Assembly: GCF_013085545.1 (NCBI RefSeq)
Contig: NZ_CP039543.1
Location: 1,550,001-1,614,000, forward strand
DNA: 64,000 bases
Direction of reading: 5' to 3'
Origin: Oceanidesulfovibrio marinus
GTDB taxonomy: Bacteria; Desulfobacterota; Desulfovibrionia; Desulfovibrionales; Desulfovibrionaceae
In this document: positions 3,371 to 38,209 of the stretch, piece by piece
Position numbering within the stretch: position 1 is the stretch's first letter
How the letters are laid out: every line of letters starts with the position of its first letter
Program-made: the position numbers and the translations under genes
The notes under the pieces: model-generated
What the model was told of the DNA's origin: nothing
The model's input: the letters and a program-made list of their open reading frames with translations, nothing else
The model's database searches: none

Positions 3371-4336
3371 CTAGTTGATGACTGCCAGTGCTTTCACCGC
3401 GGTATCTGCTTTGCCACGCTCGACAATGGTTCCCTGCTCCACATCCACTTCGAGGATGTCGCCGGAATCGTCTCCCACGAACACGAATTTTCCATCGGCG
3501 GTAAACTCCACGGAGTTCATGGACACGGAGTCGGGATTTTCGACATGGCGCAGCTCCTTGCCTGTGGCGGCGTCCCAGATGCGGATTGTCTTGTCCGCGC
3601 CCGCCGTTACCAACAGGCTTCCATCCGGGCTGAAGTCGAGGCAGTAGACGCCGTTGTCATGAGCCAGCACCTCCCATTTTTCCGAGAGGTCGGGCACATT
3701 CCAGACTTTAAGGAATTTATCTGCACTGGCGGTGGCCAGGGTTTTCCCGTCCGGAGAAAAACGCACCGCGTAGATGGCGTTGTAGTGCGCGTCTATGGAT
3801 TTGGACTCTTCCCAGGTCTTGGTGTCCCAAAGCACGAGCTTGTTGTCGGAGCCCACTGAAGCCAGCAGGGTGCTGTCCGGACTGAAATCCGTGCCGTATA
3901 CGTAGCTGTCGTGGCCTTCGAGAGTCTGCGTATGCTTGAGCCCGTTGGTTTCCCAGATAAACACCGTACGGTCCTTGCTCGCCGTTGCGAAGAGCGAACC
4001 GTCCGGACTGAAGGCGATGGACCGTACGGCTCCGCGGTGGGAATCCTCGAGGATTTCGCCATCCTTCTTTTTGAGATTCCATGCGGCCAACCGTCCTTTC
4101 TTGTCACCGGTCAGAAGCAAGCCGTCGCGGTATGCCGACGCATAGACTGTTTTTGAGTGCACTTTATCCAGCTTGCTGAAATCCAAGCTGTGGCCTTTTG
4201 AAACTTCGAACACATATCCGAAACTGCCTCCAGCGACAGCCAGGGGTTCGGCGGCCATGGCGGTGGTGCCGGCCGCTTGCATGGCAGCAAGAAGTGTAAT
4301 GACAAGAAAGAGTTTCGTGTATCCGGCTAATCGCAT
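3371..4336 (-). CDS. Exported WD40-repeat beta-propeller protein
   Basis: A 321-residue protein with an N-terminal signal peptide (MRLAGYTKLFLVITLLAAMQ..., cleavage near AMA-AEP) followed by a chain of WD40 blades. At least four are textbook (for example HRGAVRSIAFSPDG...VFIWE, HDSYVYGTDFSPDS...LVLWD, HYNAIYAVRFSPDG...LKVWN, HDNGVYCLDFSPDG...IRIWD), and the flanking degenerate ones suggest six or seven in all. The start at 4336 has AGAGGT upstream and begins the signal peptide. An in-frame ATG at 4375 overlaps the previous stop (ATGA) and would hide the signal sequence, so it is less likely. WD40 proteins are binding scaffolds; the partner is unknown. Confidence 0.85.
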   Translation of the reverse strand: MRLAGYTKLFLVITLLAAMQAAGTTAMAAEPLAVAGGSFGYVFEVSKGHSLDFSKLDKVHSKTVYASAYRDGLLLTGDKKGRLAAWNLKKKDGEILEDSHRGAVRSIAFSPDGSLFATASKDRTVFIWETNGLKHTQTLEGHDSYVYGTDFSPDSTLLASVGSDNKLVLWDTKTWEESKSIDAHYNAIYAVRFSPDGKTLATASADKFLKVWNVPDLSEKWEVLAHDNGVYCLDFSPDGSLLVTAGADKTIRIWDAATGKELRHVENPDSVSMNSVEFTADGKFVFVGDDSGDILEVDVEQGTIVERGKADTAVKALAVIN

Positions 4337-4371
4337 GATGGGTACCTCTCTGAAAAAATTCTTGGAGTCCG

Positions 4372-4992
4372 TCATTTCGTACGATCGTCTCGTACGGCAG
4401 CTCCATGCCCAAGAAGCCGTGCCAGAACGTTCACGGTTTCCACCATGGCGGCGCCATGTTTTGCGGGCAGTTTTACGGCGTACTTCATGGGCGGCATGAG
4501 CATCCAGACAAACGAGCCGCCAACAGGAGCAAGGCGCATGCGGACAGTTCCGTCCTTGTCTCCCGGTTCCAACGTCATTTTCTCGATGTCCTGCAGAAAC
4601 AGCAGATCGACGAGTCCCTTGTTCTGGTTCAACAGGTCGGCGAGCACATCGTGTGCCCCTTCTGCCGCTTCCTGCTTCTTGTTTTTAAATTCGGGCGCAC
4701 CCTTGAAAAGCGCACCGCCATAATGCAGCACAAGGGGGGCTCGCACAGGCACATCCGAATCGAACTCCGCTTCCAAGACCGTGCGATAAACCCCGCCCAT
4801 AAATTTCTTTTTCTGCTCCCAGGTCAGGCGCAAGCTGCGTGCGCCGCCCCGCCCCGGCGCAAACTCGAAATTTTCTCCTGTCTCCTCGAAGGGGCCTAAC
4901 CCGGCCCCTTCGAGTGCACCGGCCGTACGGCGGAGGGCATCCAAAGCCGCGCCGTGAACGCGAGGTGCGTACCTTTTGCCGAAACCGAACAT
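4372..4992 (-). CDS. Uncharacterised protein (206 aa) coupled to the permease gene
   Basis: Not recognised. It starts 3 bases after the permease stop, with GGAG of its ribosome site inside the permease 3' end, so translation is probably coupled. The N-terminus is short and basic (MFGFGKRYAPRVHG). The body has a WEQKKKFMGGVYRTVLEAEF block and a C-terminal GGSFVWMLMPPMKYAVKLP segment, rich in Met and aromatic residues, that might touch a membrane. There is no signal peptide. Its position directly behind an amino-acid permease and before an exported WD40 protein suggests a role in the same pathway, but nothing in the sequence names it. Confidence 0.7.
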   Translation of the reverse strand: MFGFGKRYAPRVHGAALDALRRTAGALEGAGLGPFEETGENFEFAPGRGGARSLRLTWEQKKKFMGGVYRTVLEAEFDSDVPVRAPLVLHYGGALFKGAPEFKNKKQEAAEGAHDVLADLLNQNKGLVDLLFLQDIEKMTLEPGDKDGTVRMRLAPVGGSFVWMLMPPMKYAVKLPAKHGAAMVETVNVLARLLGHGAAVRDDRTK

Positions 4993-4995
4993 CGG

Positions 4996-6360
4996 CTACT
5001 CCGCCGCATCCAGGCTGATAGGCTTGAACAGGGGTTTCTTCATGACGAGCTTGATCCAGAGCAGGGCGTAGATTATGGCGATGCCCACCATCAAACCGCC
5101 GAACTTGTAGATCTCAGCGGCTGTAATAGGATCAGGGAAGATGTTTATGATCAGAAAGATCATGCCCCCAATGCCGATAATCTGCGGGAGGGGATACAAC
5201 GGCGCCTTGTACGGGCGGGCGATATTTTTGTAGCGCGTACGCAGGATGATCACGTCCACGTGCGCGATGATGTAGGCGATGAGCCAAGACAGCGCTGCAG
5301 CCATGATGAAGATGACGATTGCCTCGATACCCGCCACGCCGGAGACCAGCACGGCCGCCATGCCGACGCCCATGAGCACAATGCCGACCCAGGGGGTCCG
5401 GAAACGCGGATGGATCATGCCGAAGATCGAAGGGATCTCGCCATCATGCGCCATGCCGTACAGCATACGGGGGATGACGCCCACCAGGGTATTGACCGAG
5501 CTGGCCGTGGCCGCCAGGGAGACAATACCGATCCAAATTTCTCCGGTTCTGCCAAGGATGGCCGAGGCTACGTCAACGTGCGGACTGGCTGATTCCGCCA
5601 GTCTGTCCAGGGGAATGTATTTGATGGACGCGTATCCATAGAGCAGGTTCACGATGAAAATGATTCCAAGCCCCAAGAACATGGACTTGGGAATGTTTTT
5701 CTCCGGATCGATGGTTTCCTCTGCCATGGGGCAGACGAATTCGATGCCGATATACAGCCAGATGGCCAGAGCGATCAGCGAAAAAACCTCCATGCCCATC
5801 GGGTTGAAAGGCATGGGAGGCATACTCGGTGCGGGTGCGCCCAGCCCCAGCAGGCCCACGGCGCCCAGGGCGGACATCGAGAGGATCATTATGCCGGTAA
5901 AGAGAATCTGCGATTTGGCGAAGATATCCACGCCCACCACATTCAGAATCACCAACAATGCCAGCAGAAAAAGTGAAAAAACCATGGGCGGGAGCGACGG
6001 CATGAACACGCCGTTGACCACGAACCCGGAAACGGCCAGCTCGGCGGGACCGGCCAGCATGCTCACAACAACGTAGCCGCAGATAGTGGCCACAATGGCC
6101 GGAAGCGAGCCCATGGCCACCCGGGTGTAGGTGCTGATGCCGCCCGCCTGCGGCATGATGCAGGCGAGCTCGGCGAAGCTCATGGCCGTAAAATATTGCA
6201 GCAGCCAGGCGGCGATCATGGCGAAAAGAAATCCGCCGCCTGCTATTCCCATGCCCTGCCCCAGGGAAACCAGCGTGGTGGAAGCCACCACAAGCCCGAC
6301 GCCCACAGCCAGGCAGGACCAGAAGCCCAACGTCCGTTTCAGTTGATTATCAGAAGCCAT
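4996..6360 (-). CDS. APC-superfamily amino acid/amine permease
   Basis: A 454-residue, 12-helix secondary transporter of the amino acid-polyamine-organocation superfamily. The N-terminal helix carries the family glycine motif (GFWSCLAVGVGLVVASTTLVSLGQG). Later segments include CIMPQAGGISTYTRVAMG (the PxxGG substrate-loop motif) and a helix-8 region typical of APC carriers. A good ribosome site (AGAGGAG, 7 bases) precedes ATG 6360. It follows the RidA gene by 78 bases in the same direction, so it is the likely importer for the substrate of the upstream dehydrogenase. The substrate cannot be read from the sequence; amino acid, N-methyl amino acid or small amine are all possible. Confidence 0.88.
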   Translation of the reverse strand: MASDNQLKRTLGFWSCLAVGVGLVVASTTLVSLGQGMGIAGGGFLFAMIAAWLLQYFTAMSFAELACIMPQAGGISTYTRVAMGSLPAIVATICGYVVVSMLAGPAELAVSGFVVNGVFMPSLPPMVFSLFLLALLVILNVVGVDIFAKSQILFTGIMILSMSALGAVGLLGLGAPAPSMPPMPFNPMGMEVFSLIALAIWLYIGIEFVCPMAEETIDPEKNIPKSMFLGLGIIFIVNLLYGYASIKYIPLDRLAESASPHVDVASAILGRTGEIWIGIVSLAATASSVNTLVGVIPRMLYGMAHDGEIPSIFGMIHPRFRTPWVGIVLMGVGMAAVLVSGVAGIEAIVIFIMAAALSWLIAYIIAHVDVIILRTRYKNIARPYKAPLYPLPQIIGIGGMIFLIINIFPDPITAAEIYKFGGLMVGIAIIYALLWIKLVMKKPLFKPISLDAAE

Positions 6361-6438
6361 TTCAATTCTCCTCTGCCACCGGAACGCCCTATACTCAGCA
6401 ACGATTCAGGGTCTTCCTGTGCTGTTGAAAAAGGAACA

Positions 6439-6840
6439 TCAGGTGCTCGAACCTATGACGGCGTCCACCTCGATCTCCACGATCTGCTCGGGCCGGAACA
6501 GGCCCTTGATTTCGCACATGGTTGTGATCGGTTTGATTTTTTTGAAATATTCCGAATAGGCGCGAATGCAGTCCCCGGCTTTGCTTATGTCCGTGATGTA
6601 GGTGCGCACACGCACGACGTCCGAATAGCGGGAGCCGGCCAGCTCCAGGGCGTCGCCGATTTTTTCAAAAATGTTTTTGGCCTGGCCGTAAGCATCGCCG
6701 GGACAGGCAACATTGCCTTCGGAATCCGTAGCCGTGGTGCCGCCCACATAGACAAAAGGACCGACCCGGACCGCCCGGCTGTATCCGACCTTTTCCTCAA
6801 GGGGGGCGCCGGAAGCGATCATTTGACGCGTAAGCTCCAT
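6439..6840 (-). CDS. RidA/YjgF family enamine/imine deaminase
   Basis: A 133-residue Rid-family protein. These homotrimers hydrolyse reactive enamine/imine intermediates released by PLP enzymes and amino-acid oxidases. Seen are the N-terminal YSRAVRVGPFVYVGGTTATD strand region, YGQAKNIFEKIGDALELAGS, the RVRTYITDI motif with the conserved substrate-carboxylate Arg, and the C-terminal PEQIVEIEVDAVIG. It lies 20 bases after the FAD amine dehydrogenase gene, a common pairing because flavin amine dehydrogenases release imines. Here it probably clears the imine product of that enzyme. The exact Rid subfamily is not assigned. Confidence 0.92.
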   Translation of the reverse strand: MELTRQMIASGAPLEEKVGYSRAVRVGPFVYVGGTTATDSEGNVACPGDAYGQAKNIFEKIGDALELAGSRYSDVVRVRTYITDISKAGDCIRAYSEYFKKIKPITTMCEIKGLFRPEQIVEIEVDAVIGSST

Positions 6841-6860
6841 AGCTCTCTCCTCATTGTTGT

Positions 6861-7997
6861 TCAGTTGACGGGACGAAATCTGTCCGAGACAAAGGCCGAG
6901 ATATCCACATCGGGCGTCTCTCCCAGAGCAGCCTGACTGATGACCCGCCCCACGGCAGGGGAAATGCCGAATCCATGACCGGAAAAACCCGTGGCCGAGA
7001 CATAGCCCGGCACGTCGCTCACAGGACCCAGAACCGGGACCTTGTCCGCCACCTGGGCGATAAGGCCGCTCCAGACCCGCGTGACGTTCACATCCTGCAG
7101 GAAAGGGAAAAAGCGCAGAACTGCCCGGCAGATCGCCGGAGCGACCTCGGGATAATTGGGGCGGCGCTCCGACTTGCCCCGGTCATCGTACAAGAAGGTG
7201 TCGTAGCCGATGAAACCGCCCCAGACGAACGAGCCGTGCTCGGTCTGGTGGCCGTAGAAGTCCGATGCCGCGGTGCCGATCATCTGCGGAAAAAGTGGTT
7301 CCCGTGCTTCCGTGACCAGAATTTCCGTGAACACCGGCGTCATGGGGAAATCCAGACCAACCATGTTGGCCACTTTACGTCCGCCAATCCCCGCCGCATT
7401 GACCACGATCTTGGAGGAGTACGTATCCTTGTCCGTCACCACGCCGCTGACATGCCGCTTGGACAGCCGGATTTCCCGGACCGTTTCTCCGGTGCGCAAC
7501 TCCGCGCCCAGGCTGCGGGCCTTGCGCAGAAAAGCGTAGGTCACCAGCATGGGGTTGGCGTGGCCGTCCGTGGGGCAGTAGCTGGCGCCCAGAACAATAT
7601 CCGACACATACGGATTGATCTCGCGAACGGCCTCGTTGTCCAGATACTCCACAGGCAGGCCAAAAGCCTGGCTCTGCTTGTCCACGGCCGCGCGCATGCT
7701 TTCTTCCTGCGCCGGCGTTACGCACAGACGCAGGTTACCGCCCTGTTTGTACTCCACGTTAAGGCCCAGCTCTTCCGCAAGATTTTCAAAGAGCTTCACG
7801 CTGTACATGGCTAACGGCATCTCGCGCGGATCACGGGCGGATTGGCGTACCCCCCCGCCGTTCTGTCCGGAAGCCTGGCTACAGACCTCGCCCTTGTCCA
7901 AAATCAACGTTTTCAGGCCGCGCCGGGCCAGGTTGTAGGCAATGGAGCAACCATTGACTCCGGCGCCGATGACTATGGCGTCATAGGTCTTGGCCAT
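6861..7997 (-). CDS. FAD-dependent amine/amino-acid dehydrogenase, catalytic (DadA/SoxB/HcnC-like) subunit
   Basis: A 378-residue DAO-fold flavoprotein. The dinucleotide-binding GAGVNGCSIAYNLARRG starts at about residue 9, followed by LILDKGE and SGQNGGGVRQ (the flavin-contact region of DadA/SoxB/HcnC proteins). The C-terminal motif RVWSGLIAQVADKVPVLGPV...GYVSATGFSGHGFGISPAVG is that of sarcosine/glycine/proline dehydrogenase beta subunits. It is encoded 1 base after the BFD-like [2Fe-2S] subunit and with two further redox subunits, so it should oxidise a primary or secondary amine and pass electrons to the iron-sulfur subunits instead of oxygen. The substrate is unknown; N-methylglutamate, proline, sarcosine or opines are candidates by family. 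Confidence 0.88.
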   Translation of the reverse strand: MAKTYDAIVIGAGVNGCSIAYNLARRGLKTLILDKGEVCSQASGQNGGGVRQSARDPREMPLAMYSVKLFENLAEELGLNVEYKQGGNLRLCVTPAQEESMRAAVDKQSQAFGLPVEYLDNEAVREINPYVSDIVLGASYCPTDGHANPMLVTYAFLRKARSLGAELRTGETVREIRLSKRHVSGVVTDKDTYSSKIVVNAAGIGGRKVANMVGLDFPMTPVFTEILVTEAREPLFPQMIGTAASDFYGHQTEHGSFVWGGFIGYDTFLYDDRGKSERRPNYPEVAPAICRAVLRFFPFLQDVNVTRVWSGLIAQVADKVPVLGPVSDVPGYVSATGFSGHGFGISPAVGRVISQAALGETPDVDISAFVSDRFRPVN

Positions 7998-7998
7998 A

Positions 7999-8334
7999 CT
8001 ACCTCTCCTCCTCCCCGCCCTGGCTGTCGTTGGCGAGAACGCCCATGGGCGTGGGCCTGACAGGCGGACGCGCGGTCACGGGCTCCATCGTTGCCGGGTC
8101 CACGGGGCCGTCGGCCTCTCTGGCCACCATTCCGGCGACCAGCCGCCCGCAGGTCTGCCCCTGGCAAAGCCCCATCCCGGCCCGAGTGGCCCGCTTCACC
8201 CCGCTGACGGTGGTTATTCCGGCCGCCAGTGCATCCCGGATTTCCCCCTTTGTGACCTCTTCACACCGGCACAACACTAAATCGTCGTCTGCGTGAGCCT
8301 TGCGGCCCTGGCAGTTGCATCCTTCAGAGTGCAT
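7999..8334 (-). CDS. BFD-like [2Fe-2S] subunit of the amine dehydrogenase
   Basis: A 111-residue protein whose core CRCEEVTKGEIRDALAAGITTVSGVKRATRAGMGLCQGQTCG is a BFD-type [2Fe-2S] domain (Cys-X-Cys ... Cys-X4-Cys). In HcnB and SoxA-like proteins this domain is fused to the C-terminus of the FAD/NAD subunit; here it is a separate gene, as in the four-gene dye-linked proline dehydrogenases of Thermococcales. The N-terminal CNC (residues 7-9) is an extra cysteine pair. Its start directly abuts the stop of the ferredoxin gene, so they are cotranscribed. Confidence 0.85.
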   Translation of the reverse strand: MHSEGCNCQGRKAHADDDLVLCRCEEVTKGEIRDALAAGITTVSGVKRATRAGMGLCQGQTCGRLVAGMVAREADGPVDPATMEPVTARPPVRPTPMGVLANDSQGGEEER

Positions 8335-8838
8335 CTACGCCTCCTTTCGCTTGAAAAAACGCGCCTGCATGGACCATTCGAGAGGGACGGCCATGGTGAC
8401 CTGCGCGGTCCGGTCCATGGAGTCCAAAAGCCTGCTTCGCACGATTCTGGCTTCACCAAGCACGGAACCCGAACGGTCCAGCGCCAGGACGATCTCGCCT
8501 TTGTCCGGCAGGGGTAAAAACTCGTACGGCAGGGTCACATAGGCCTCATCGCCCTTGCTCTCGTCCACGATGAACACGGCCTGTCCCGGACAGGCGGAAA
8601 CGCATTTGCCGCATCCGGAACAGTTCTCGGCATTCAGTTCAGGACGGTCCGTGATCTTGCTGCCAACGCGCACCGCGTCTTTGTCGCAGGCCTGCTCGCA
8701 CGGATTGCAGGGAATTTCCTGAATACATTCGAATATGGCCACGGGGCCCTGTTTACGGCGCTCGGCAGAAGGAACGCCCGGGGCGTTCGCAAGGTCTTCC
8801 ATCAGAAGGTAGCCGTTGGTTTTTAAGCAGTCTGACAT
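8335..8838 (-). CDS. 4Fe-4S ferredoxin-type electron transfer subunit of the amine dehydrogenase
   Basis: A 167-residue protein with a polyferredoxin core. The second site is complete (CSGCGKCVSACPGQA). The first is incomplete (CIQEIPCNPCEQACDKDA), as in several HcnABC-like clusters. The remaining 70 residues (LDRSGSVLGEARIVRSRLLDSMDRTAQVTMAVP) form a conserved tail also seen in ferredoxin partners of these dehydrogenases. It overlaps the end of the FAD/NAD subunit gene by 16 bases. It probably wires the flavin subunits to the cell's electron acceptor. HcnABC of pseudomonads lacks this subunit, so the complex is closer to the anaerobic or archaeal version. Confidence 0.82.
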   Translation of the reverse strand: MSDCLKTNGYLLMEDLANAPGVPSAERRKQGPVAIFECIQEIPCNPCEQACDKDAVRVGSKITDRPELNAENCSGCGKCVSACPGQAVFIVDESKGDEAYVTLPYEFLPLPDKGEIVLALDRSGSVLGEARIVRSRLLDSMDRTAQVTMAVPLEWSMQARFFKRKEA

Positions 8839-9932
8839 GCCGCCTCCTTCTCCAAAGCCTTGTGCATCAGCTCTTCGGCCGCACGGATGCGCTCGCCGAA
8901 AGGACCACCCCGCAACCGGTCCAGGGATTCGTGCAACTCCTGCCCGCGCGATTCAGCCGCTTGCGAATCCGCAAAACCCTGGCGCCGGGCAGCCGCCAGG
9001 CCGGCAAGCCGCCCGCGGATCATGGCCGAGCTGGCTTCTTCGATGCCGCCGGCGTCGCCCGCCACATACAGCCCAGGAACAGACGTCGCTCCATTCTGGG
9101 CCGTTGCCGGGACCAGTCCGCCCAAGCCGGGCAGGTTAACCATTGTGCAACCCGCCATGCGGGAAAGCTGGGTAGCCGGGGTCAGGCCCACGGCAAGACA
9201 GATCGTGTCCACCGCAAACGTTTTTTCCGTTCCGGGAACCGGCTGCCAACGTTCGTCCACCTGGGCGATAGTCGCGGATTCGACCTTGCCGTCGCCTTCT
9301 GCCTGCAGAATGGTATGTCCGAGAAAAAAGGGAACGCCGGTCCGGGCCACCTTTGCCGCGTGCACGCCGTAGCCGCCGATGGCCCTGCTCGCATCGATCA
9401 TGGCCTGAACACGGCAGCCCGCCTGCAGCATCTGGTAGGCAACAACCACGCCCACATTGCCGCAGCCGACCATCAGCAGATCGTTGCCAGGGCGTACGCC
9501 GTGCAGATTGGCCATGGTCTGGGCCGCGCCCGCGCCGATGACGCCCGGCAGAGTCCAGCCGGGAAAGGGAACCATGTTTTCCGAAGCGCCCGTGGCAATG
9601 ACCACGGCATTGGCGCGGACCCGTTCGATGCGGTCGCCGCGTACGACCTGGACGATCAGGCCGTCGTACAGGCCGATGACCTGCGCCCCCAGCACCACTT
9701 CCACGCCCGCACGTCCGGCTTCTTCCAACAGCTGCTGCCCGATCCGGAACCCACGCTCCCGGGCCCGGTGTTCCTTGGAGCCAAAGAACTTATGGATCTG
9801 CTTGAACAATTGTCCGCCCGGCAGGGCGTTTTCGTCGTAAACCACAACGTCCAGACCGTACTGTGCAGCCTCGATGGCCGCCGAAAGTCCTGCCGGCCCA
9901 GCGCCGATGATGATCAGGTCGCGCCGTTTCAT
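8823..9932 (-). CDS. FAD/NAD(P)-binding subunit (HcnB/PDH-alpha-like) of the amine dehydrogenase
   Basis: A 369-residue class II pyridine-nucleotide-disulfide-type flavoprotein. The first Rossmann motif is IIGAGPAGLSAAIEAAQYG (about residue 8) and the second is MVGCGNVGVVVAYQML (about 158). The closing flavin motif is GLYVAGDAGGIEEASSAMIRGRLAGLAAA. ATG 9932 is chosen because it starts at MKRRDLIIIGAGPAG and has GAGGAG six bases upstream; a longer in-frame reading would run into the preceding gene. It overlaps the [2Fe-2S] subunit stop by 4 bases. In HcnABC, D-hydroxyproline and dye-linked proline dehydrogenases this subunit relays electrons between the catalytic flavin and the clusters. Confidence 0.88.
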   Translation of the reverse strand: MKRRDLIIIGAGPAGLSAAIEAAQYGLDVVVYDENALPGGQLFKQIHKFFGSKEHRARERGFRIGQQLLEEAGRAGVEVVLGAQVIGLYDGLIVQVVRGDRIERVRANAVVIATGASENMVPFPGWTLPGVIGAGAAQTMANLHGVRPGNDLLMVGCGNVGVVVAYQMLQAGCRVQAMIDASRAIGGYGVHAAKVARTGVPFFLGHTILQAEGDGKVESATIAQVDERWQPVPGTEKTFAVDTICLAVGLTPATQLSRMAGCTMVNLPGLGGLVPATAQNGATSVPGLYVAGDAGGIEEASSAMIRGRLAGLAAARRQGFADSQAAESRGQELHESLDRLRGGPFGERIRAAEELMHKALEKEAACQTA

Positions 9933-10264
9933 GGCCGCTCCTCTTTTTCCGCAACAGCTCCGTTGCCAAGTCCATGTTGGGTTCGGATCGCCATGCCCTC
10001 GCACAAAGGTTCGACGCACGTACGCACGTTGGGTTTGCCGTTGACCACCATGACGCAGTCCGTACAGCGCCCGATGGCGCAAAATACGCCGCGCGGCTCC
10101 TTGTTTTTGGCCGTATACCGGTGCGTCAGCACTCCCGCGGCGCGCAACGCCGCCGCGATGGGCTCGCCCTCAAACCCTTCCATGGGCTCGCCGTCAAAAG
10201 TGAACGTGACCCTGCGGCCGCGCTCATAGGTGCCAAGCACCGGATGTTCTGCTAATCTGTTCAT
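9929..10264 (-). CDS. HcnA-like [2Fe-2S] ferredoxin-fold subunit
   Basis: A 111-residue protein of the SoxA-N/HcnA type. The start FTFDGEPMEGFEGEPIAAALRAAGVLTHRYTA is the ferredoxin fold, and PRGVFCAIGRCTDCVMVVNGKPNVRTC carries the plant-type cluster cysteines (CX4CX2C...C). It is the first gene of the five-gene dehydrogenase set (HcnA-like, FAD/NAD, ferredoxin, BFD, catalytic FAD). AAGGTC lies 8 bases before ATG 10264. A 270-base gap separates it from the glutamate-synthase-like genes, so it may have its own promoter or a processed leader. Confidence 0.85.
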   Translation of the reverse strand: MNRLAEHPVLGTYERGRRVTFTFDGEPMEGFEGEPIAAALRAAGVLTHRYTAKNKEPRGVFCAIGRCTDCVMVVNGKPNVRTCVEPLCEGMAIRTQHGLGNGAVAEKEERP

Positions 10265-10536
10265 TGTCAGCGACCTTGTATGTAGAGCAGATAATTAAGT
10301 AACTCTCCGCCAGGGGCCCCCTGCCCCCTCACATATGGGGATGTTGTTTTATGACTTGCTCACTGGCCACGTGTTGAAAAAGCCGTCCTGAGTTCTTTCA
10401 GGCCGGATCAGCGAAAACGCTGTTTCGCCAACCCGCACGAGTCATTCACTCCACGTTGCTCCGTTCAGGCCTCGGCGCGCCATGCCAGCCGCAAGGCGTG
10501 CGCAGGCTGTTTTCAATGGCCTGTCAGGCACCTCGC

Positions 10537-11835
10537 CTAGAAAAACCCGAACGGTTCGGTGAAGGTGAAGTCCGTACCCATCAGGGGCACGCCGGTAACG
10601 GCGCAGGACTCCAGGGTCAGGGAGCGCAGGTCTTCGCGCTCCAGGTTGCGGAGCTTGGTCTTGCCCGCGGCTTTGGCCAGAATAATAGCCTCATGGGTCA
10701 TGGCCTTGATGTAATTAGCTACGCGCTGGGCTGCTTCATCCACGTCCAGGCGTGCGCGCAGCTCCGGGTCCTGGGTGCCGATACCAAAGGCGCACCGACC
10801 GCTCTGGCAGCGCTGGCACACGGTACAACCCATGGCCACCATGACGGACTGGCCCAGAGCCACGGCGTCCGCACCCAGCGCCAGGGCTTTGGCCACGTCG
10901 GCGCCGCTTTTTATGCCGCCGGAAACGATCAGGGAGACTTCATCCTTCACCCCCATTTCCTCCAGCGCGCGTGCGGCCTGCACCAGGGCCGGCAGCGTGG
11001 GGATGCCCATGTTGTCCGCAGCCACCACGGGCGCCGCGCCTGTGCCGCCTTGCGCGCCGTCCACCACCACGCCGTCCACACCGGCCTTGACCGCTATCTT
11101 GACGTCTTCGCGGACGCGTCCGGCCGCCAGCTTGAGGAAAATCGGGATGCGGTTGTCCGTGACTTCCCGGAGCTGCTCCATCTTGATGACCAGATCATCG
11201 GCTCCGAAAATATCGCCGTGGCGCGGATGGCTGTGCAGATCTATGCCTTCGGGAATTTGCCGGAATGCCGCCACTTCCTTGCTGATCTTGGAGCCCATCA
11301 GGTGTCCGGAAAGACCCGGCTTGGCGCCGATGCCGATGATGATCTCCAGCGCATCGGCCACCTCGATGGAGCGCAGGGAAAAGCCCATGCGGCTGGGCAG
11401 AATCTGCACTACCTGTTTGTAGGATTCGGCGCGCTCTTCGGGGAGCAGTCCGCCCTCGCCGTTGTTGATGGACGTGCCCACAAGTTGTGTGGCTTTGGCC
11501 AGGGCGATCTTGGCCTCCTTGGAAAGCGCGCCGTAGCTCATTCCGGAAATCAGAATGGGGGTTTCCACCACCAGCGGCTCGGAACAGTAGCGACCTCCCA
11601 GCGTGGTGCGCGTCTCGCAAGGTTCGCGGTAGGTATCCACGGACATGCGGGTCAGCTGCGAAGGCAGCACGGTTATGTCGTCGAAGGTGGGAAAAGGCCG
11701 CGGGGTTCCACAGCCGCGGATGCGGTGCGTACCATTCTCCGCCTTCCAGCGGATGTCCGAAAGCACCTCTTTGCTCCAGGTGGAATGGGGCCTTTCTTTA
11801 ACCACTGCGGGTTTGTTTTTTGCTTGCTCTGTCAT
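10537..11835 (-). CDS. FMN-binding glutamate synthase-like subunit (GlxD/MgsC type)
   Basis: A 432-residue protein corresponding to the central FMN domain of glutamate synthase large subunit. Seen are the TIM-barrel motifs (ETPILISGMSYGALSKEAKIALAKA, INNGEGG, GIGAKPGLSGHL) and VDGVVVDGAQGGTGAAP. ALGADAVALGQSVMVAMGC is followed by the CX5CX4C ligands of the [3Fe-4S] cluster (CTVCQRCQSGRC). It lacks the amidotransferase and GXGXG parts, which are separate genes just upstream (stop and start overlap as TGATG). This three-gene layout is that of GlxBCD of rhizobia and MgsABC (N-methylglutamate synthase) of methylotrophs; an archaeal-type glutamate synthase is the alternative. Confidence 0.88.
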   Translation of the reverse strand: MTEQAKNKPAVVKERPHSTWSKEVLSDIRWKAENGTHRIRGCGTPRPFPTFDDITVLPSQLTRMSVDTYREPCETRTTLGGRYCSEPLVVETPILISGMSYGALSKEAKIALAKATQLVGTSINNGEGGLLPEERAESYKQVVQILPSRMGFSLRSIEVADALEIIIGIGAKPGLSGHLMGSKISKEVAAFRQIPEGIDLHSHPRHGDIFGADDLVIKMEQLREVTDNRIPIFLKLAAGRVREDVKIAVKAGVDGVVVDGAQGGTGAAPVVAADNMGIPTLPALVQAARALEEMGVKDEVSLIVSGGIKSGADVAKALALGADAVALGQSVMVAMGCTVCQRCQSGRCAFGIGTQDPELRARLDVDEAAQRVANYIKAMTHEAIILAKAAGKTKLRNLEREDLRSLTLESCAVTGVPLMGTDFTFTEPFGFF

Positions 11836-12536
11836 CAGGCTTCCGCCTTTTCAATCTTGGGGTTGAACAAGGTATAGTGGTGCCGCCCGCTGGTCATGGG
11901 CCGTAGGGACATGAACTCCGAAGCGTCGGCATCGATGGCGTATTTCTCAAAGAGCATGTTCAGGCTCTCGGCCTCCTGCTCTGATATGGGATGGAACTCC
12001 ACGTTGCCGCCCAGTTTTTCTTCGGCCTGCGGGTCGCGCACGTGGATCAGACCGCGGTACATGGACTCGCCGAGCCCCTGCCCGACCTCGCCCAGCACCA
12101 CAATGCGCCCGCCCATGGTCATCTGGCCGCACCAGCGTCCGGTGGAACCGCAAATGACCAGGTCGCCGCCCTTCATGCCCAGGCCGGCGCGCCCGCCCGT
12201 GTTCCCGCGGACTACGATGGTTCCGCCAATGGTGGAAGGCGCACAGTTGCTGCCGGCGTTCTTCTCCACGATGATCTCGCCACAGAGCATGTTGTCGCCG
12301 GTGTACCAACCCGTGTTGCCTTTGATGACCAGGCGCGGCCCTTCCAGAAAACCGCCGGTATAAAATCCAGTGGAGCCGTCCACCGTAATGGTGGCCTCGC
12401 CTTTCAAGGCGGTACCCAGGTTGTGGACCGAGCCCGGATGCTCCACCAGAATCTCGGCTTCTCCCGAGGCCATGCACGACTTGATCTTTTTATTGAGCTC
12501 GCGTTTCGCCAACGCGGAGGCGTCTAGAGTGACCAT
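11835..12536 (-). CDS. GXGXG-domain glutamate synthase-like subunit (GlxC/MgsB type)
   Basis: A 233-residue right-handed beta-helix protein equivalent to the C-terminal alpha subunit domain of glutamate synthase. Repeats of the GXXGXXXGG type run through it (STGFYTGGFLEGPRLVIKGNTGWYTGDNM, IVVRGNTGGRAGLGMKGGDLVICGSTGRWCGQMTMGG). In glutamate synthase this domain is structural and lines the ammonia tunnel. It overlaps the amidotransferase gene by 13 bases and the FMN subunit gene by 1 base, so the three are translationally coupled and should form one enzyme. Confidence 0.87.
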   Translation of the reverse strand: MVTLDASALAKRELNKKIKSCMASGEAEILVEHPGSVHNLGTALKGEATITVDGSTGFYTGGFLEGPRLVIKGNTGWYTGDNMLCGEIIVEKNAGSNCAPSTIGGTIVVRGNTGGRAGLGMKGGDLVICGSTGRWCGQMTMGGRIVVLGEVGQGLGESMYRGLIHVRDPQAEEKLGGNVEFHPISEQEAESLNMLFEKYAIDADASEFMSLRPMTSGRHHYTLFNPKIEKAEA

Positions 12537-13420
12537 ACGTTCACCGTCCCTGGATCCATTTCGTCTGCAAAGACGTCGTCGAAAATGGGCGTGAGGCTGA
12601 TCTGCTCGGAACCGAAAAGCGTGACGCCATCCTGCTCGAAAAGAAGCAGGGGCTTGATGGCCAGCCTGTCTTTGACAAAACCCAGCTCCGTAGGCGTGGA
12701 GGCCAGGATGGTGAAAATGCCGTCCAGATCTTCCAATGACGCGGCAAGCGCATCCTGCAGGCTCAGGCCCTGGGACCCCATCTGCCAGCCGATGTAGTGC
12801 GCGGCCATCTCGGAGTCATTGCGGGTCTTGAACTGCGTGCCCTTGGACTCGAGAAACCGGCGCATGTTGAAGTAATTGGTAAACTGCCCATTATGAACAA
12901 TGGCCAGCTCCGGATAGTGAGGCGTAACGAAGGGATGGGCCGCGTTGATGTCCTCTGCGCTTTCCGTGGCCAGCCGGACGTGGCCGATGCCGTGTGTGCC
13001 GGCTGTGGGGCGAATCTCATGGCGCGCCCTGATGTCCACTGCGTGGCCCTGGTCCTTGTACACGGCAATGCTCTTGCCTATGGAATGGACACACAGCTTC
13101 GGATGGGCATTCACGACTGTGTGCAGCAGCGGTATCTCGGCAGCGTCTATGTCCAGGCTTGCTTCATAGAAGGTAAAAATACCCTGGCCCTGGTACACCT
13201 TATGTTCGATTTCCCGTGCATGCTGGCTGACGAGATCGCGTAAAATTCCCACGAACTCGGGACTGGGCATGGCGACGCGCAGCTTCACATGGTCGCGTTT
13301 TTCGTAAATGGCCACGCCTGTGGCATCCAGGCCCCGGTGCTGCACCAACTGCAGCATGTCCAGTAAATCCGTTCCCAATGTCTGGGAACCTGCGGCTATA
13401 ATGCCGGCAACTCCGCACAT
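12524..13420 (-). CDS. Class II glutamine amidotransferase-like subunit (GlxB/MgsA type)
   Basis: A 298-residue Ntn-type amidotransferase. ATG 13420 is chosen because it places the catalytic Cys at position 2 (MCGVAGII) and has AAGGAG six bases upstream. Further active-site motifs are GHVRLATES, HNGQFTN and the NDSEMAAHYI stretch. In glutamate synthase it hydrolyses glutamine to feed ammonia to the FMN domain; in MgsA the corresponding subunit acts on a gamma-glutamyl amide. It follows the ligase gene by about 256 bases on the same strand. The actual amide donor (glutamine or a gamma-glutamyl alkylamide) cannot be told from the sequence. Confidence 0.87.
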   Translation of the reverse strand: MCGVAGIIAAGSQTLGTDLLDMLQLVQHRGLDATGVAIYEKRDHVKLRVAMPSPEFVGILRDLVSQHAREIEHKVYQGQGIFTFYEASLDIDAAEIPLLHTVVNAHPKLCVHSIGKSIAVYKDQGHAVDIRARHEIRPTAGTHGIGHVRLATESAEDINAAHPFVTPHYPELAIVHNGQFTNYFNMRRFLESKGTQFKTRNDSEMAAHYIGWQMGSQGLSLQDALAASLEDLDGIFTILASTPTELGFVKDRLAIKPLLLFEQDGVTLFGSEQISLTPIFDDVFADEMDPGTVNVWSL

Positions 13421-13676
13421 GTTTTTCTCCTTGGGTGGCTGAGACGCTTCTGCGCAGACTGTTTTTTGGCAAAAAGAGTCTGCCCCACTCTTCTGTTGGT
13501 CGTTATCCGGTGCGCGAGATCTATGATTCCCTTGCACTGGATTATATGGAAGGCCGCGCTGTAGCCGAAGCAAAGTGAGTACCTTCCATCCAACAAGAGC
13601 GTCTTCTACACAGTTGCTGCTTTTGCTGTGGCACAGGACATCCGTTGCATCAGGATGATCCGGTGCACCCGCTTAA

Positions 13677-15011
13677 TTAGAGATGGTACGAGTAATGTTC
13701 GAATTCCCAATCCGAGACCCAGCTCCGGTAGAGTTCGATCTCCGCCTCTTTCATGGCCATGAAGTTCTGAACAATCTTCTTCCCCATGGCGTCGCAGAAG
13801 TCGGTGTCTCCTTCGAGCTCGCGGAGCGAACGGAAAAGGGAAAGAGGCATGGTCTCAAACCGGTCCGGACTCTCCCGGTACATGTCGCCCTCGAAAGGCT
13901 CGCCCGGATCGATCGCGTTGTTGATGCCTTCCAATCCCGCGGCAAGGACGGCCGAGATGGCCAGATACGGATTGGCGGAAGCGCAGCCTGCGCGTACTTC
14001 CACGCGCGTTGCCGGGCCGCGTTCGGACGGAACGCGCAGATAGACCGTGCGGTTGTCCAGGCCCCATCCGATGTAGTAGGGAGCAAAACTGTCCAGCTGG
14101 AAGCGTTTGTAGGAATTGACGGTGGGGGCAAGAAAAGCAGTGCTTGCCTTGGCATGCTCCATAATACCGCCGATGAAATGGCGCATGGTCTCGGCCATGC
14201 CCATGTTGCCGGACGGATCATCGAAGATATTTTTTCCATCGGCGTCGTTCATGGAGAAATGCATGTGGAAGCCACTGCCGCCGGCATCGTTGCGCGGCCG
14301 CCCCATGAAGGTGATCAGCAAATTCTCAAGGTGTGCAAGCTCTTTGCAGACATTCTTGAAGGTGAATGTCTGGTCGGCCATCTTCAATGCATCGGAATGC
14401 TTCCAGTTGAACTCGTACTGTCCCTGGAAGAACTCATGATTGTAGTAGAGGATATCGTAGCCCATTTCGGAAAGGATCTGCTGCAGCTTGTGCATGATGT
14501 TCTGAGGGTCCACACGCGGACTCATTGTGTAGACGTTGGATGGCTTGTCGCAGTAGAAATCGCAGGTTCCTGCCCCATTTGTCTTGAAGACATAGAACTC
14601 AAGCTCACTGGCCACAATGGGACGCAGGTTGAGCTGGGCGTACTTGGCGAGAATATGTTTCAACTGGTTGCGCGGCGAGAAAGGCCAGGGCTGGTCGTCA
14701 ACCACGGGGTCCCCGATAAAACGGATGGTCTTGTCGAGATACGGGACCGTGGAGAAGGTCGTAATGTCAGGAACTATTTTCATGTCCCCGTAGCTTATTT
14801 CATCGGCAACGCCGGAGCCCGGGGCAATGTCGTTATTGAGCATAACGGCTGAGACCGCCTGCGCGCAGGTGATTCCCTCCTCGACGATCTCTTCGAATCG
14901 ATAGGCAGGTACGATCTTTCCGCGGTTCACCCCGTGAATGTCCGAAAAATCAACCCGTATGGAGTCGATGCCGTTGTCTTGAATATAGTCTTTGATTTCT
15001 GTGACCTGCAT
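13677..15011 (-). CDS. Glutamine synthetase-like ligase (gamma-glutamylmethylamide synthetase/GlnT type)
   Basis: A 444-residue glutamine-synthetase superfamily protein. The N-terminal beta-grasp carries VDFSDIHGVNRGKIVP, the form found in gamma-glutamyl-amine ligases (GMAS, PuuA, GlnT) and not the one of housekeeping GlnA. The catalytic domain has ASELEFYVF, GQYEFNW, the nucleotide-site GSGFHMHFS, PTVNSYKRF and NRTVYLRVPSERGPATRVEVRAG. ATG 15011 has GAGGTG six bases upstream; an ATG 35 codons earlier would add a basic tail unlike the family. Adjacency to GlxBCD/MgsABC-type genes favours glutamylation of an amine. Substrates by family include methylamine, ethylamine, ethanolamine and polyamines. 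Confidence 0.87.
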   Translation of the reverse strand: MQVTEIKDYIQDNGIDSIRVDFSDIHGVNRGKIVPAYRFEEIVEEGITCAQAVSAVMLNNDIAPGSGVADEISYGDMKIVPDITTFSTVPYLDKTIRFIGDPVVDDQPWPFSPRNQLKHILAKYAQLNLRPIVASELEFYVFKTNGAGTCDFYCDKPSNVYTMSPRVDPQNIMHKLQQILSEMGYDILYYNHEFFQGQYEFNWKHSDALKMADQTFTFKNVCKELAHLENLLITFMGRPRNDAGGSGFHMHFSMNDADGKNIFDDPSGNMGMAETMRHFIGGIMEHAKASTAFLAPTVNSYKRFQLDSFAPYYIGWGLDNRTVYLRVPSERGPATRVEVRAGCASANPYLAISAVLAAGLEGINNAIDPGEPFEGDMYRESPDRFETMPLSLFRSLRELEGDTDFCDAMGKKIVQNFMAMKEAEIELYRSWVSDWEFEHYSYHL

Positions 15012-15169
15012 GGAAACACCTCGCTGCATGTTCGCGTTTGCCTCTTCTGCCCTGTCGGCTTGGGAGAAGCCCTTGGAAGAGACGACTTTGATTTTACTTT
15101 TTTGTGCACCATCCATACCATCAAGAAAATCCTCTTAAATTATCGCTAGATATTAAAGTGAATGTTCAG

Positions 15170-15211
15170 CAACAAAAAAGAAATGCGCCGTGCAAAATGC
15201 ACAGCGCATTT
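15170..15211 (-). terminator. Rho-independent terminator of the CI-like regulator gene
   Basis: A 14-base-arm inverted repeat (AAATGCGC-C-GTGCA, loop AAA, TGCAC-A-GCGCATTT) at 15181-15211 has one mismatch. On the minus strand it is followed by CTTTTTTG. It lies 150 bases past the regulator stop and 170 bases before the ligase start, so the ligase operon needs its own promoter inside 15012-15170. Confidence 0.8.
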
Positions 15212-15363
15212 GATGTGCCTGTTCCATAACAGACTAATATTAAATCGTTTAACTAAACAATAGGCTTCTAGGGGTGCGATTGAGCAGCTAAAACAAAATG
15301 GCTAAAATTTACAAATTCGCACAAAGAGGTTTCAGAAGATGCCGCGCGGACCTGATCCAAAAT

Positions 15364-16128
15364 TCAACTTTGTGGACCGTAGATCGGACCGGCCCTTTCC
15401 AGGACAATACCCAGGATGATGGCATCGCTCTCGTGGATGGTCGGTGTATCTTCCCGGTCCGTAACAAAGATGCCGCCTTCTGCAGATACTTCGAACCGCC
15501 GGATGACCAGGCGTCCGCCAACGGCGATCATGTAAAACCTTGAGGCGACGGGCTCAGTCTGGCTGGTATCCACGAGCAGCCAGTCTCCGGGCAGAATGGG
15601 CCCGAGGCTTTCTCCCGCCCGAAAGCAGACCATAGAGAGCCAGTCCCCCAGGCTATCCGCGGCAACTCTGCGCATAACATAAGGCACGGAGCCCAGATCC
15701 GGCACCATCTCGCCGTACTCGTTCAGCCAGGGGCGAACCACTGGGCGGCAGACATACTCCCGCAGCTTCATGGTGCCGCTTTCCGAATACACAATGCCGA
15801 TGAGCTGCTGATCCGCCGGCAACGTGATGCGCACCGACACCGCCGCTCCGGTGATGTCGAGCACCGTGATGCCGGGCTCGTCCGGACGCTGCTCCTGTTT
15901 CCCGGGAGTTTCCCCGGTGGTAAGCCATTCCGGAGCTACCTTGAACAGATGGGATGCCCGGTAGACCCACTCCATGGGAACTGCCCCGCGCGCCTTCCAG
16001 GCACTGATGGTCGAAGGGATTGTCTCCAGTGCAACCGCGAGCTCTTTCTGCGTATTCTTTCCCGACGCCTCCATCATACGCCCGATGATCGCAGCAGCGC
16101 CTGTTTCAGCGTCATATGGAGTTTGCAT
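15364..16128 (-). CDS. CI-like repressor: helix-turn-helix plus S24/LexA-type peptidase domain
   Basis: A 254-residue regulator. Residues 10-70 form a Cro/CI helix-turn-helix (GKNTQKELAVALETIPSTISAWKARGAVPMEWVYRASHLFKVAPEWLTTGE). The C-terminal half resembles an S24 peptidase/dimerisation domain (CFRAGESLGPILPGDWLLVDTSQTEP...RFYMIAVGGRLVIRRFE). The middle (about 85-135) is a linker plus extra beta segment. Such CI/C2-like proteins are common single-copy regulators in Desulfovibrio and are not necessarily phage derived; no phage genes are near. A perfect palindrome sits 15 bases upstream of the start. Its target is probably itself and perhaps the downstream ligase operon. Confidence 0.85.
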   Translation of the reverse strand: MQTPYDAETGAAAIIGRMMEASGKNTQKELAVALETIPSTISAWKARGAVPMEWVYRASHLFKVAPEWLTTGETPGKQEQRPDEPGITVLDITGAAVSVRITLPADQQLIGIVYSESGTMKLREYVCRPVVRPWLNEYGEMVPDLGSVPYVMRRVAADSLGDWLSMVCFRAGESLGPILPGDWLLVDTSQTEPVASRFYMIAVGGRLVIRRFEVSAEGGIFVTDREDTPTIHESDAIILGIVLERAGPIYGPQS

Positions 16129-18682: not shown

Positions 18683-18741
18683 GGGTTTCACTCCCCTGAA
18701 CATTCCATTGGATGATTACGGTCCGGCATGATTCCTCCGGA

Positions 18742-33838: not shown

Positions 33839-33875
33839 TATCCTGATTTGATCAGCTAGAAAGGGACAGGCAGCC

Positions 33876-34406: not shown

Positions 34407-34409
34407 GCG

Positions 34410-38206: not shown

Positions 38207-38209
38207 ACA

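Follow-up and report, generated by a model that had tools for sequence, protein, structure and literature searches.

Gene Content and Extent of the Operon

The window, a stretch of 64,000 nucleotides from Oceanidesulfovibrio marinus, carries an operon composed of a regulator gene, a ligase gene with the glutamine-synthetase (GS) fold, glxBCD, five genes for a flavin/iron-sulfur dehydrogenase, and genes for a RidA-family protein and an APC permease (Table 1). All of these are minus-strand genes, and their reading frames are intact. Profile searches placed every gene in the family that the initial annotation had named for positions 4996-16128, so that the inventory was borne out. Of the span itself, the start was retained but the downstream end was not: the operon probably extends beyond the permease to about 3371, and 3371-16128 is the more likely extent, because both genes after the permease have homologues beside the permease in two other loci (L122 and L123). 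For the first of them, no Pfam or NCBIfam match was found, and a homologue adjoins the permease in L051 as well. The homologues of the WD40 protein in L122 and L123 are at 41-42%.

Table 1. Features of the operon in the window
Feature	Position	Strand	Evidence or remark
CI-like regulator (HTH), likely local regulator	15364..16128	-	PF07022 39.1 bits
GS-fold ligase, predicted gamma-glutamyl-alkylamide synthetase	13677..15116	-	PF00120 337.5 bits, residues, tree
GlxB/MgsA-like class II glutaminase subunit	12524..13420	-	PF13522 68.3 bits
GlxC/MgsB-like GXGXG subunit	11835..12536	-	PF01493 78.8 bits
GlxD/MgsC-like FMN subunit, predicted N-alkylglutamate synthase core	10537..11835	-	PF01645 347.5 bits
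Terminator-like hairpin within glxD end	10559-10547	-	
Intergenic gap glxD-hcnA, 272 nt	10265..10536	-	
HcnA-like [2Fe-2S] subunit	9929..10264	-	PF13510 103.4 bits; aligns to SoxA 10-101
HcnB-like FAD/NAD subunit	8823..9932	-	PF07992 118.6 bits; aligns to SoxA 170-493
4Fe-4S ferredoxin subunit	8335..8838	-	Fer4 matches near threshold
BFD-like [2Fe-2S] subunit (SoxA A3 domain)	7999..8334	-	PF04324 50.5 bits, PF17806 40.4 bits
DAO catalytic subunit, predicted N-alkylglutamate dehydrogenase	6861..7997	-	PF01266 250.5 bits
RidA-family protein	6439..6840	-	PF01042 82.5 bits
APC permease, presumed importer	4996..6360	-	PF00324 125.5 bits
Protein with no assigned family	4372..4992	-	conserved beside permease
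WD40-repeat protein	3371..4375	-	PF00400 158.1 bits

The regulator, whose C-terminal half is S24-like by eye, has a homologue of 67-68% identity upstream of the ligase in L034 and L131. Since the glxD-hcnA gap adjoins a terminator-like hairpin, two transcripts are possible, and the operon may be split at this point. Terminator-like sites in the region (18, shuffle mean 15.1) were no commoner than in shuffles. An Rfam scan gave a tRNA as its sole match. In the genome, dsrA was found (652.9 bits, cut-off 392.85), consistent with O. marinus probably being a sulfate reducer.

The Ligase Has Lost the Ammonium Site

The ligase shows three changes at the ammonium site (Asp50 to Ala, Tyr179 to Val and Glu327 to Phe), and the catalytic Glu, His and Arg residues are retained. 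Among 23 aligned locus ligases, none keeps Asp50, Tyr179 or Glu327 and three keep Ser53, while E129 (printed as E131), E212, E220, H269, R321, R339, R344 and R359 are kept in all 23. Seven more ligases adjoining GlxD loci showed the same pattern. The same ammonium-site losses were seen in an alignment of five GMAS and PuuA sequences; for GmaS, Ala48' and Trp300 are described (PMC7948447). The window genome also encodes a GlnA with these residues intact.

In the tree, the 23 locus ligases formed one clade (support 96/93), which also includes a Streptomyces canus ligase and is separate from the GMAS clade. The window ligase scored under every NCBIfam equivalog cut-off (TIGR03105, 328.5 bits against 469.6; TIGR00653, 306.9 against 429.15). 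As a point against the gamma-glutamyl-amine assignment, GlnA structures (1e-67) were better phmmer matches than GmaS (2.8e-58). The initial annotation had proposed a gamma-glutamyl-amine ligase and had named a grouping with housekeeping GlnA as the result that would speak against it. No such grouping was found. The residues and the tree support the gamma-glutamyl-amine class, with the amine substrate predicted. The true start of the ligase may be further in; its relatives have 438-521 aa.

GlxD Is a Sister of MgsC

GlxB retains Cys2 and the HVRLAT, HNGQ and NDSE motifs. The GlxD cysteines form CX2CX2CX4C. The CX5CX4C motif described earlier is contained in this pattern, which has one Cys more. 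CX5CX4C is not a hallmark of MgsC: it occurs in none of the four methylotroph-type MgsC examined, which lack the Fe-S cysteines that GlxD retains. In the tree, the GlxD clade (91/99) is sister to the MgsC group and not inside it, and 14 GltB sequences branch away from both at 100/100. Assignment of GlxBCD to the MgsABC type is upheld by this position, and the grouping with ordinary glutamate synthase that had been set as counter-evidence did not appear.

The Dehydrogenase Consists of Unfused MgdABCD-Like Parts

The Pfam domains of the dehydrogenase were Fer2_4, Pyr_redox_2, Fer4, Fer2_BFD with SO_alpha_A3, and DAO. In alignment with the sarcosine-oxidase alpha model, HcnA, HcnB and BFD cover successive segments; DAO aligns to the beta partner. 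A Pfam profile search found no GCV_T (folate) domain in the operon; such a domain is present in the L064 MgdC-like protein (215.1 bits). The dehydrogenase had been regarded as a foreign replacement of MgdABCD. Instead, it corresponds to the MgdABCD parts, unfused, minus the folate domain and plus a ferredoxin. The subunits probably work as one unit, because they are fused in differing combinations elsewhere (in L048, HcnB with ferredoxin; in L053, judged by eye, HcnB with BFD as well as DAO with ferredoxin).

The motifs are CX4CX2CX12C in HcnA (protein P0005, by eye), RVW as the R-x-W FMN motif in DAO and CXC-X32-CX4C in BFD (by eye). A CX4CX2CX12C subunit, an FAD/NAD subunit, a DAO subunit with R-x-W and a BFD-type cluster are likewise found in HcnABC, OdhABC (flavin-containing opine dehydrogenase), D-hydroxyproline dehydrogenase and archaeal L-proline dehydrogenase. 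For these enzymes, PMC4575208 gives CX4CX2CX11-12C as the gamma-type [2Fe-2S] motif and CXC-X15-20-CX4C as the alpha-subunit motif. In contrast, the operon BFD is a separate gene with a spacing of 32 instead of 15-20, and the operon dehydrogenase is linked to a ligase and a synthase.

The best solved relative of DAO is 1y56_B (1.2e-43), listed as sarcosine oxidase, which we take to be the beta subunit of Pyrococcus L-proline dehydrogenase. The DAO trees were built without the Pyrococcus and Thermococcus proline dehydrogenases. One recovered a core clade at 99/98; the other, which included ligase-free relatives, was weakly resolved and did not recover it.

The Gene Set Recurs in Several Phyla

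Much of the set was found again in Desulfobacterota, Bacillota, Spirochaetota and Chloroflexota; it is not peculiar to one organism. Since the same genes occur in similar order in other phyla, the association is, on comparative grounds, not due to chance. Among 27 GlxD loci, the ligase was present in 22 (one a fragment), HcnA and HcnB in 21 and DAO in 15. Four of the five loci without ligase start inside glxC or glxD; in L038, no ligase match was found, though the contig continues upstream. L051 and L056 possess the ligase and GlxBCD, and neither HcnAB-DAO nor an opine-type gene lies within reach.

The permease has relatives of 34-59% identity in L048, L050, L051, L057, L059, L122 and L123, and also in L158 and L159. 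These last two loci, from the window's own family (genomes G089 and G153), contain RidA, DAO and a permease of 56% identity but no ligase; L158 also has HcnB-ferredoxin and BFD, and L159 more distant HcnA and HcnB (38% and 31%). Neither genome gave a GlxD-level match, and each has only two GS-family genes. Their DAO proteins branch with that of L048. The proposed genomic link between dehydrogenase and ligase therefore holds across several phyla, but by these loci it is not absolute, because a ligase-free dehydrogenase module also exists.

In L050, L132 and L133, an opine-type dehydrogenase appears to take the place of the flavoenzyme (PF02317 Octopine_DH, 116.9 bits in L050 and 119 bits in L132; a 47% relative in L133). 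NAD opine dehydrogenases use N-substituted amino acids. Unlike the known NAD(P) enzymes, those of the relatives would run oxidatively; they have an extra N-terminal helix (by eye) and stand in a shell-locus context.

Aldehyde Enzymes and Shell Proteins in Related Loci

No aldehyde enzyme was found in the operon among the nine PF00171 and four AFOR_N matches of the window genome, in which a profile search detected no BMC shell proteins. Therefore, the evidence on the fate of the aldehyde comes from relatives. An aldehyde dehydrogenase (AldDH) at 35750-37219 of the window lies apart from the operon, by eye in a TRAP-transporter cluster. Of two low-scoring PF00171 matches considered as acylating candidates, one is sulfoacetaldehyde-dehydrogenase-like and the other proA-like (by eye).

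Aldehyde:ferredoxin oxidoreductase (AOR) was found in L051, L053 and L054, and EutE-type AldDH above the cut-off in L046 and L056, with a lower-scoring one in L050. The Bacillota genome G683 (L132 and L126) carries ligase, opine-type dehydrogenase, shell hexamer, AldDH, PduL and shell genes, followed by GlxBCD, an acetate/propionate-family kinase (502.2, cut-off 293.4) and a permease. Its AldDH scored 676.6 with the acetaldehyde dehydrogenase model (cut-off 620.1) and 372 with the sulfoacetaldehyde dehydrogenase model. The acetaldehyde call stems from this one genome. The G683 ligase is a remote one, at 35% to the closest reference ligase, and was left out of the ligase tree.

Shell-related genes occur in 13 of the 27 GlxD loci. 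As in EUT/PDU-type metabolosomes, loci of relatives contain shell proteins, PduS-like, EutJ and TIGR02536-like proteins and AldDH, with PduL in G683. Unlike those systems, the aldehyde source would be an N-alkylglutamate dehydrogenase, and the window genome is shell-free. In all ten shell loci that were measured, BFD carries an extension of 116-189 aa; in four shell-free loci the length is 21-37 aa. This extension is homologous to the C-terminus of a TIGR02536-like protein encoded in those shell loci (probability 95.3%, 2.3e-8, compared with 0.1-0.2% for four controls). The amphipathicity of the putative targeting helices was uneven: of 2000 shuffles, 2 to 467 were equally high for the ten BFD extensions, 0 to 652 for seven opine-dehydrogenase or AldDH N-termini and 102 to 1165 for five window controls. 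Thus, the extension and its homology carry the proposal that some relatives seem to enclose the aldehyde-releasing step in a protein shell. Word searches in the main texts of the 2021 and 2014 catalogues of BMC locus types turned up no glutamine synthetase and, for that of 2021, no amidotransferase.

Proposed Pathway and Alternatives

In the reading that we consider probable, the operon specifies the anaerobic breakdown of a small primary amine through N-alkylglutamate, with release of free aldehyde. The amine would enter through the permease, and the ligase would couple it to glutamate at the expense of ATP. By analogy with MgsABC, GlxB would hydrolyse the resulting gamma-glutamyl alkylamide, and GlxCD with FMN would transfer the amine to C2 of 2-oxoglutarate or glutamate, giving N-alkylglutamate. 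The HcnA/HcnB/ferredoxin/BFD/DAO complex would oxidise the N-alkylglutamate to an iminium, which, with the help of RidA, would split into glutamate and aldehyde, the electrons passing to NAD and/or ferredoxin. The aldehyde, set free without an MgdABCD-type folate domain, would be used by AldDH in shell-protein loci or AOR in relatives, and by unlinked enzymes in the window genome.

The nearest characterised system is the N-methylglutamate pathway of aerobic methylotrophs (GMAS/MgsABC/MgdABCD). It shares the ligase without ammonium site, the three-subunit GlxBCD-type synthase and a dehydrogenase of HcnA-, HcnB-, BFD- and DAO-like parts. In the operon, however, the ligase falls outside the GMAS clade, GlxD keeps Fe-S cysteines, the folate (GcvT) domain is absent, a delta or gamma subunit gene was not seen, the ferredoxin is separate and the hosts are anaerobic. 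This kinship, with GlxD as sister to MgsC, speaks for the classical route, in which methylamine is the substrate and formaldehyde is released. The initial annotation had pointed to methylated or other small amines. We regard methylamine as unlikely, because the operon lacks the MgdC folate domain and, in one relative, acetaldehyde-type AldDH, PduL and an acetate/propionate-type kinase accompany the pathway; the ligase position also argues against it. More likely is an alkylamine of two or more carbons, with ethylamine as the first candidate.

Alternatively, the dehydrogenase, RidA and permease might degrade a secondary-amine amino acid after its import (proline, sarcosine or an opine-like compound), with the ligase and GlxBCD as a neighbouring unit of other purpose. 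L158 and L159 suggest that an imported compound can be used directly by means of the dehydrogenase and permease, and the 1y56_B match and the 272-nt gap fit such a division. However, HcnAB and GlxD are neighbours in 21 of the 27 GlxD loci, across several phyla, opine-type dehydrogenases substitute in the same context, and in L050 and L051 the permease (48-49% identical) accompanies ligase and GlxBCD without HcnAB-DAO. This explanation, too, seems improbable.

That the amine is functionalised (taurine, ethanolamine or a diamine) and yields sulfoacetaldehyde, glycolaldehyde or an amino aldehyde is quite doubtful. The ligase pocket is not readable from sequence, and the window genome has a sulfoacetaldehyde acetyltransferase (786.3 bits, cut-off 676.4) adjoining an acylating sulfoacetaldehyde dehydrogenase-like protein (486.3, cut-off 600). 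These genes, however, are roughly 1.45 Mb distant from the operon, next to a gene for a sigma-54-type regulator, and the L132 AldDH favours acetaldehyde. Ordinary GS-GOGAT nitrogen assimilation, suggested by the Pfam domains that the ligase and GlxD share with glutamine synthetase and glutamate synthase, was dropped as highly improbable in view of the lost ammonium site, the intact separate GlnA (L001), the ligase tree and the distance of GlxD from GltB.

The PuuA-PuuB putrescine pathway also glutamylates its amine with a GS relative lacking the ammonium site. It oxidises the gamma-glutamyl amine directly and has no GlxBCD; a route of this type was rejected, since it leaves GlxBCD unexplained.

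The N-alkylglutamate pathway may extend further. Tentatively, with chances slightly short of even, N-alkylglutamate dehydrogenase (flavin/Fe-S, or opine-type with a targeting helix) would be the aldehyde-generating signature enzyme of an unassigned BMC class in a multi-phylum anaerobic pathway for C2 or longer alkylamines. The version in the window, from a sulfate reducer, would be the one without a shell. The titles and abstract openings covered by our literature search contained no description of such a system. If the pathway is real, anaerobes including sulfate reducers would use small amines without oxygen or corrinoid methyltransferases, and the purpose of an uncharacterised kind of bacterial microcompartment would be explained. 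An ethylamine route predicts theanine, N-ethylglutamate and acetaldehyde-derived products, and enzymes for N-alkyl amino acids could be drawn from a natural anaerobic source.

Gene content and extent of the operon

Domain searches of the window genes revealed a run on the minus strand, listed below together with other features of the window and its genome. Pfam thresholds were clearly exceeded by the operon domains, with the exception of the ferredoxin, the score of which was close to threshold. The protein next to the permease gave no match in the Pfam and NCBIfam searches. In two Bacillota loci (L122 and L123), homologues of both this protein and the WD40 protein neighbour the permease, and a homologue of the former also lies beside the permease in an Archaeoglobi bin (L051). 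Thus, the operon limit at 4996 in the initial annotation is probably too short. The genome is a single 4.76-Mb contig and possesses dsrA (652.9 bits).

Features of the window and of its genome (G000, contig C1)
Feature	Position	Strand	Content and basis
Gene run	window 16128 down to 3371	minus	CI-like regulator, GS-fold ligase, GlxB, GlxC, GlxD, HcnA-like, HcnB-like, ferredoxin, BFD-like, DAO-family subunit, RidA, APC permease, protein without domain match, WD40 protein (Pfam/NCBIfam)
Adjoining DMSO-reductase-like molybdoenzyme operon and PAS/LuxR-type regulator	window 17322-21653 and 21756-23123		in the operon, HMMs identify catalytic, Fe-S and chaperone genes; membrane gene by eye
Catabolic cluster	window 32711-39370		TRAP transporter and another catabolic gene (by eye) around an aldehyde dehydrogenase
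Aldehyde dehydrogenase of that cluster	window 35750-37219		PF00171
Short AFOR_N match in that cluster	window 37311-37655		
Second GS-family gene without ammonium site (L003, L129)	G000:C1:616752-617711		Asp50 to Tyr, Glu327 to Phe
Sulfoacetaldehyde acetyltransferase (L139)	G000:C1:3017676-3020938		neighbouring gene similar to acylating sulfoacetaldehyde dehydrogenase; probable role in sulfonate use

The ligase has lost the ammonium site

The residue pattern sets the window ligase apart from glutamine synthetase. The genome possesses three GS-family genes, and the ammonium-binding residues are intact in one of them (L001). In the alignment, Asp50, Ser53, Tyr179 and Glu327 are replaced in the window ligase by Ala, Val, Val and Phe, respectively, with the ATP, metal and glutamate residues retained; the numbers are those of E. 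coli GlnA, and the position labelled E131 is E129. The alignment comprised 23 locus ligases (the window, 21 loci from the GlxD scan and a ligase from another contig of the L047 genome; the L043 fragment was excluded). Asp50, Tyr179 and Glu327 were kept in none of them and Ser53 in three. All four residues were also absent from five GMAS and E. coli PuuA in the same alignment, and seven further ligases next to GlxD loci showed the same pattern. The GmaS structure is described with Ala at the Asp50 position and Trp at the Glu-flap position (PMC7948447).

In the tree, the 23 locus ligases formed one clade (96/93); GMAS formed another (100/100), and 13 GlnA-type rows also lay outside the locus-ligase clade. 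Together with the lost ammonium site, this supports the earlier claim of a non-housekeeping ligase. Two signals were contrary: in phmmer, GlnA structures ranked above GmaS for the window ligase, and it reached no NCBIfam equivalog threshold. The locus-ligase clade included an ammonia-site-less ligase from a Streptomyces canus plasmid (L095, 38.9% to the window ligase), which neighbours genes for a cytochrome P450, a ferredoxin and an FAD oxidoreductase. L003 fell on the GMAS/PuuA side; its neighbours (by eye) are a substrate-binding protein, a sensor kinase and a sigma-54-type response regulator.

GlxD is rare and distinct from ordinary glutamate synthase

The 28 GlxD-type rows formed a clade (91/99), with four methylotroph-type MgsC and a second L052 copy as its neighbours (100/93), and 14 GltB rows from the window's order were separated at 100/100 (the L060 fragment was excluded). 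This supports the proposal that the FMN protein differs from ordinary glutamate synthase. The motif CX2CX2CX4C was present in 28/28 rows of the GlxD clade and in 0/4 MgsC, which have a 16-residue insert instead. Therefore, the Fe-S motif of the initial annotation is correct for the window gene, but is not an MgsC trait. With such a cluster, ferredoxin-dependent reductive amination may be possible in the window GlxD. For N-methylglutamate synthase, PMC6237917 describes the redox cofactors as unknown.

GlxD of the window kind is rare. Within the window's order, a scan at E 1e-60 gave matches in 71 of 199 genomes, but 68 of these were only 36-42% identical, and the 14 of them placed in the tree were all GltB; the other three were the window, G015 and G035. 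With only the best few candidates scored in each genome, GlxD was found at E 1e-120 in 3/395 genomes of a phylum sample and at E 1e-110 in 8/398 of a sample around Fusibacter, where each count includes the query's own or the central genome.

The dehydrogenase resembles sarcosine oxidase without the folate domain

HcnA, HcnB and BFD aligned consecutively to positions 10-101, 170-493 and 523-601 of the sarcosine-oxidase alpha model (996 positions), and the DAO subunit aligned to the beta family. Other fusions of the subunits exist, namely HcnB-ferredoxin in L048, a locus of the cultured Fusibacter paucivorans DSM 12116, and, by eye, both HcnB-BFD and DAO-ferredoxin in L053; this argues for a single complex. 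In addition to these parts, the MgdC-like protein of Aminobacter (L064) possesses a folate-binding GCV_T domain (215.1 bits), for which domain searches gave no match in the window operon. The Mgd enzyme is predicted to yield methylene-tetrahydrofolate (PMC5023235). Since the folate-binding domain is missing, the window dehydrogenase is predicted to release the aldehyde free. Its DAO subunit has the R-x-W motif, which is linked to FMN in a flavin-type opine dehydrogenase (PMC4575208).

Linkage of the genes across organisms

The GlxD scan of genome contigs gave 27 loci from Desulfobacterota (or Deltaproteobacteria), Bacillota, Spirochaetota, Chloroflexota and one Archaeoglobi bin; the organism names are tentative because most are metagenome bins. 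The ligase was present in 22 loci, HcnA and HcnB in 21, DAO in 15, BFD in 14, a separate ferredoxin in 13, shell-related genes in 13, the APC permease in nine (four only 24-25% identical), RidA in four, and an aldehyde dehydrogenase (AldDH) and aldehyde:ferredoxin oxidoreductase (AOR) in three each. Four of the five ligase-less loci begin within glxC or glxD; in the fifth, L038, no ligase match was found. Among the six loci without HcnB, L057 and L060 stop within glxD, L052 stops past a second Glx set, and L050 has an opine-type dehydrogenase. Neither HcnB nor an opine-type dehydrogenase was found within reach in L051 and L056; L051 contains a gene for a GlcD-like FAD oxidase. The Chloroflexota loci have distant HcnB and DAO (31-38%).

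These counts favour the proposed link between dehydrogenase and ligase, but ligase-free modules speak against a fixed one. DAO was detected at E 1e-50 in 8/199 genomes of the order, five of which lacked a GlxD-level match: in the GlxD scan of the order, G152, G153 and G155 had only 38% GltB-type matches, G089 had none, and G013 was absent from the matches. Two ligase-free loci in genomes of the window's own family carry RidA, DAO and a 56% identical permease, together with HcnB-ferredoxin and BFD and without GlxBCD in L158 (G089), and with more distant HcnA and HcnB in L159 (G153). In L159, RidA adjoins an ornithine-cyclodeaminase-like gene (by eye). G089, G152, G153 and G155 each have two GS-family genes, one with a GlnA-like score (about 430 bits) and one long weak match. 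The L158 and L159 DAO branch next to that of L048 in a weakly resolved tree. Thus, dehydrogenase and permease can serve some imported compound, and the window permease may also do so. HcnB relatives occur in G234 and G477 as well, which gave no GlxD match at the threshold applied.

Shell loci and the fate of the aldehyde

In Desulfobacterales-type loci, a shell module of PduS/RnfC-like, PduT-like, EutJ, TIGR02536-like, CcmP-like, vertex and hexamer proteins sits between ferredoxin and BFD. EutJ, RnfC and the Pfam BMC domain passed their cut-offs; TIGR02536 (44.1 vs 152.6), CcmP (231.8 vs 340) and PduT (148 vs 250.3) stayed below. BFD carries an extension of 116-189 aa in 10/10 shell-module loci measured (the L036 start is uncertain) and of just 21-37 aa in the window, L034, L047 and L048. 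The first domain of this extension matched the TIGR02536-like protein at its C-terminus with a probability of 95.3% (2.3e-8), compared with 0.1-0.2% for four control alignments. It is followed by an EEIVNRVI-type helix that, by eye, looks like the N-terminal AldDH segments in L046 and L056. When compared with shuffles, the amphipathicity of the putative helices gave a mixed outcome.

L046 and L056 have two AldDH apiece, and the single one tested in each exceeds the EutE-type cut-off. In L050, an Octopine_DH protein (116.9 bits) takes the position of HcnAB-DAO, with shell genes adjacent and an AldDH under all cut-offs. In the Fusibacter-centred sample, G683 (L132 and L126) and G846 (L133 and L124) share an extended set: ligase, opine-type dehydrogenase, shell hexamer, AldDH, PduL-like, TIGR02536-like, PduS-like, shell proteins, GltB-like, GlxB, GlxC, GlxD, kinase and permease (named by HMM in G683 alone). 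In G683, AldDH passed the acetaldehyde dehydrogenase cut-off, and PduL and an acetate/propionate-family kinase passed their own. AOR replaces AldDH in L051, L053 and L054.

The joining of one ligase and GlxBCD front end to varied dehydrogenases and aldehyde oxidisers points to N-alkylglutamate as the common intermediate and an aldehyde as the product; read from gene content, this pattern is our strongest argument for both. In addition, the ligase and GlxBCD of L127 (G862) stand with DAO and with genes for electron-transfer flavoprotein, another electron route for the same pathway.

A probable anaerobic N-alkylglutamate pathway

No published description of the system was found in the literature searched, which included main-text passages of two microcompartment catalogues; the supplements of these catalogues may already list the shell loci without assigning a function. 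The window operon would work like the N-methylglutamate pathway, but its ligase lies outside the GMAS clade and its dehydrogenase lacks the folate domain. Therefore, we do not class it as a member of that pathway. Our reading, held with reasonable though not high confidence, is that the operon encodes an anaerobic N-alkylglutamate pathway, for which ethylamine is the favourite predicted substrate.
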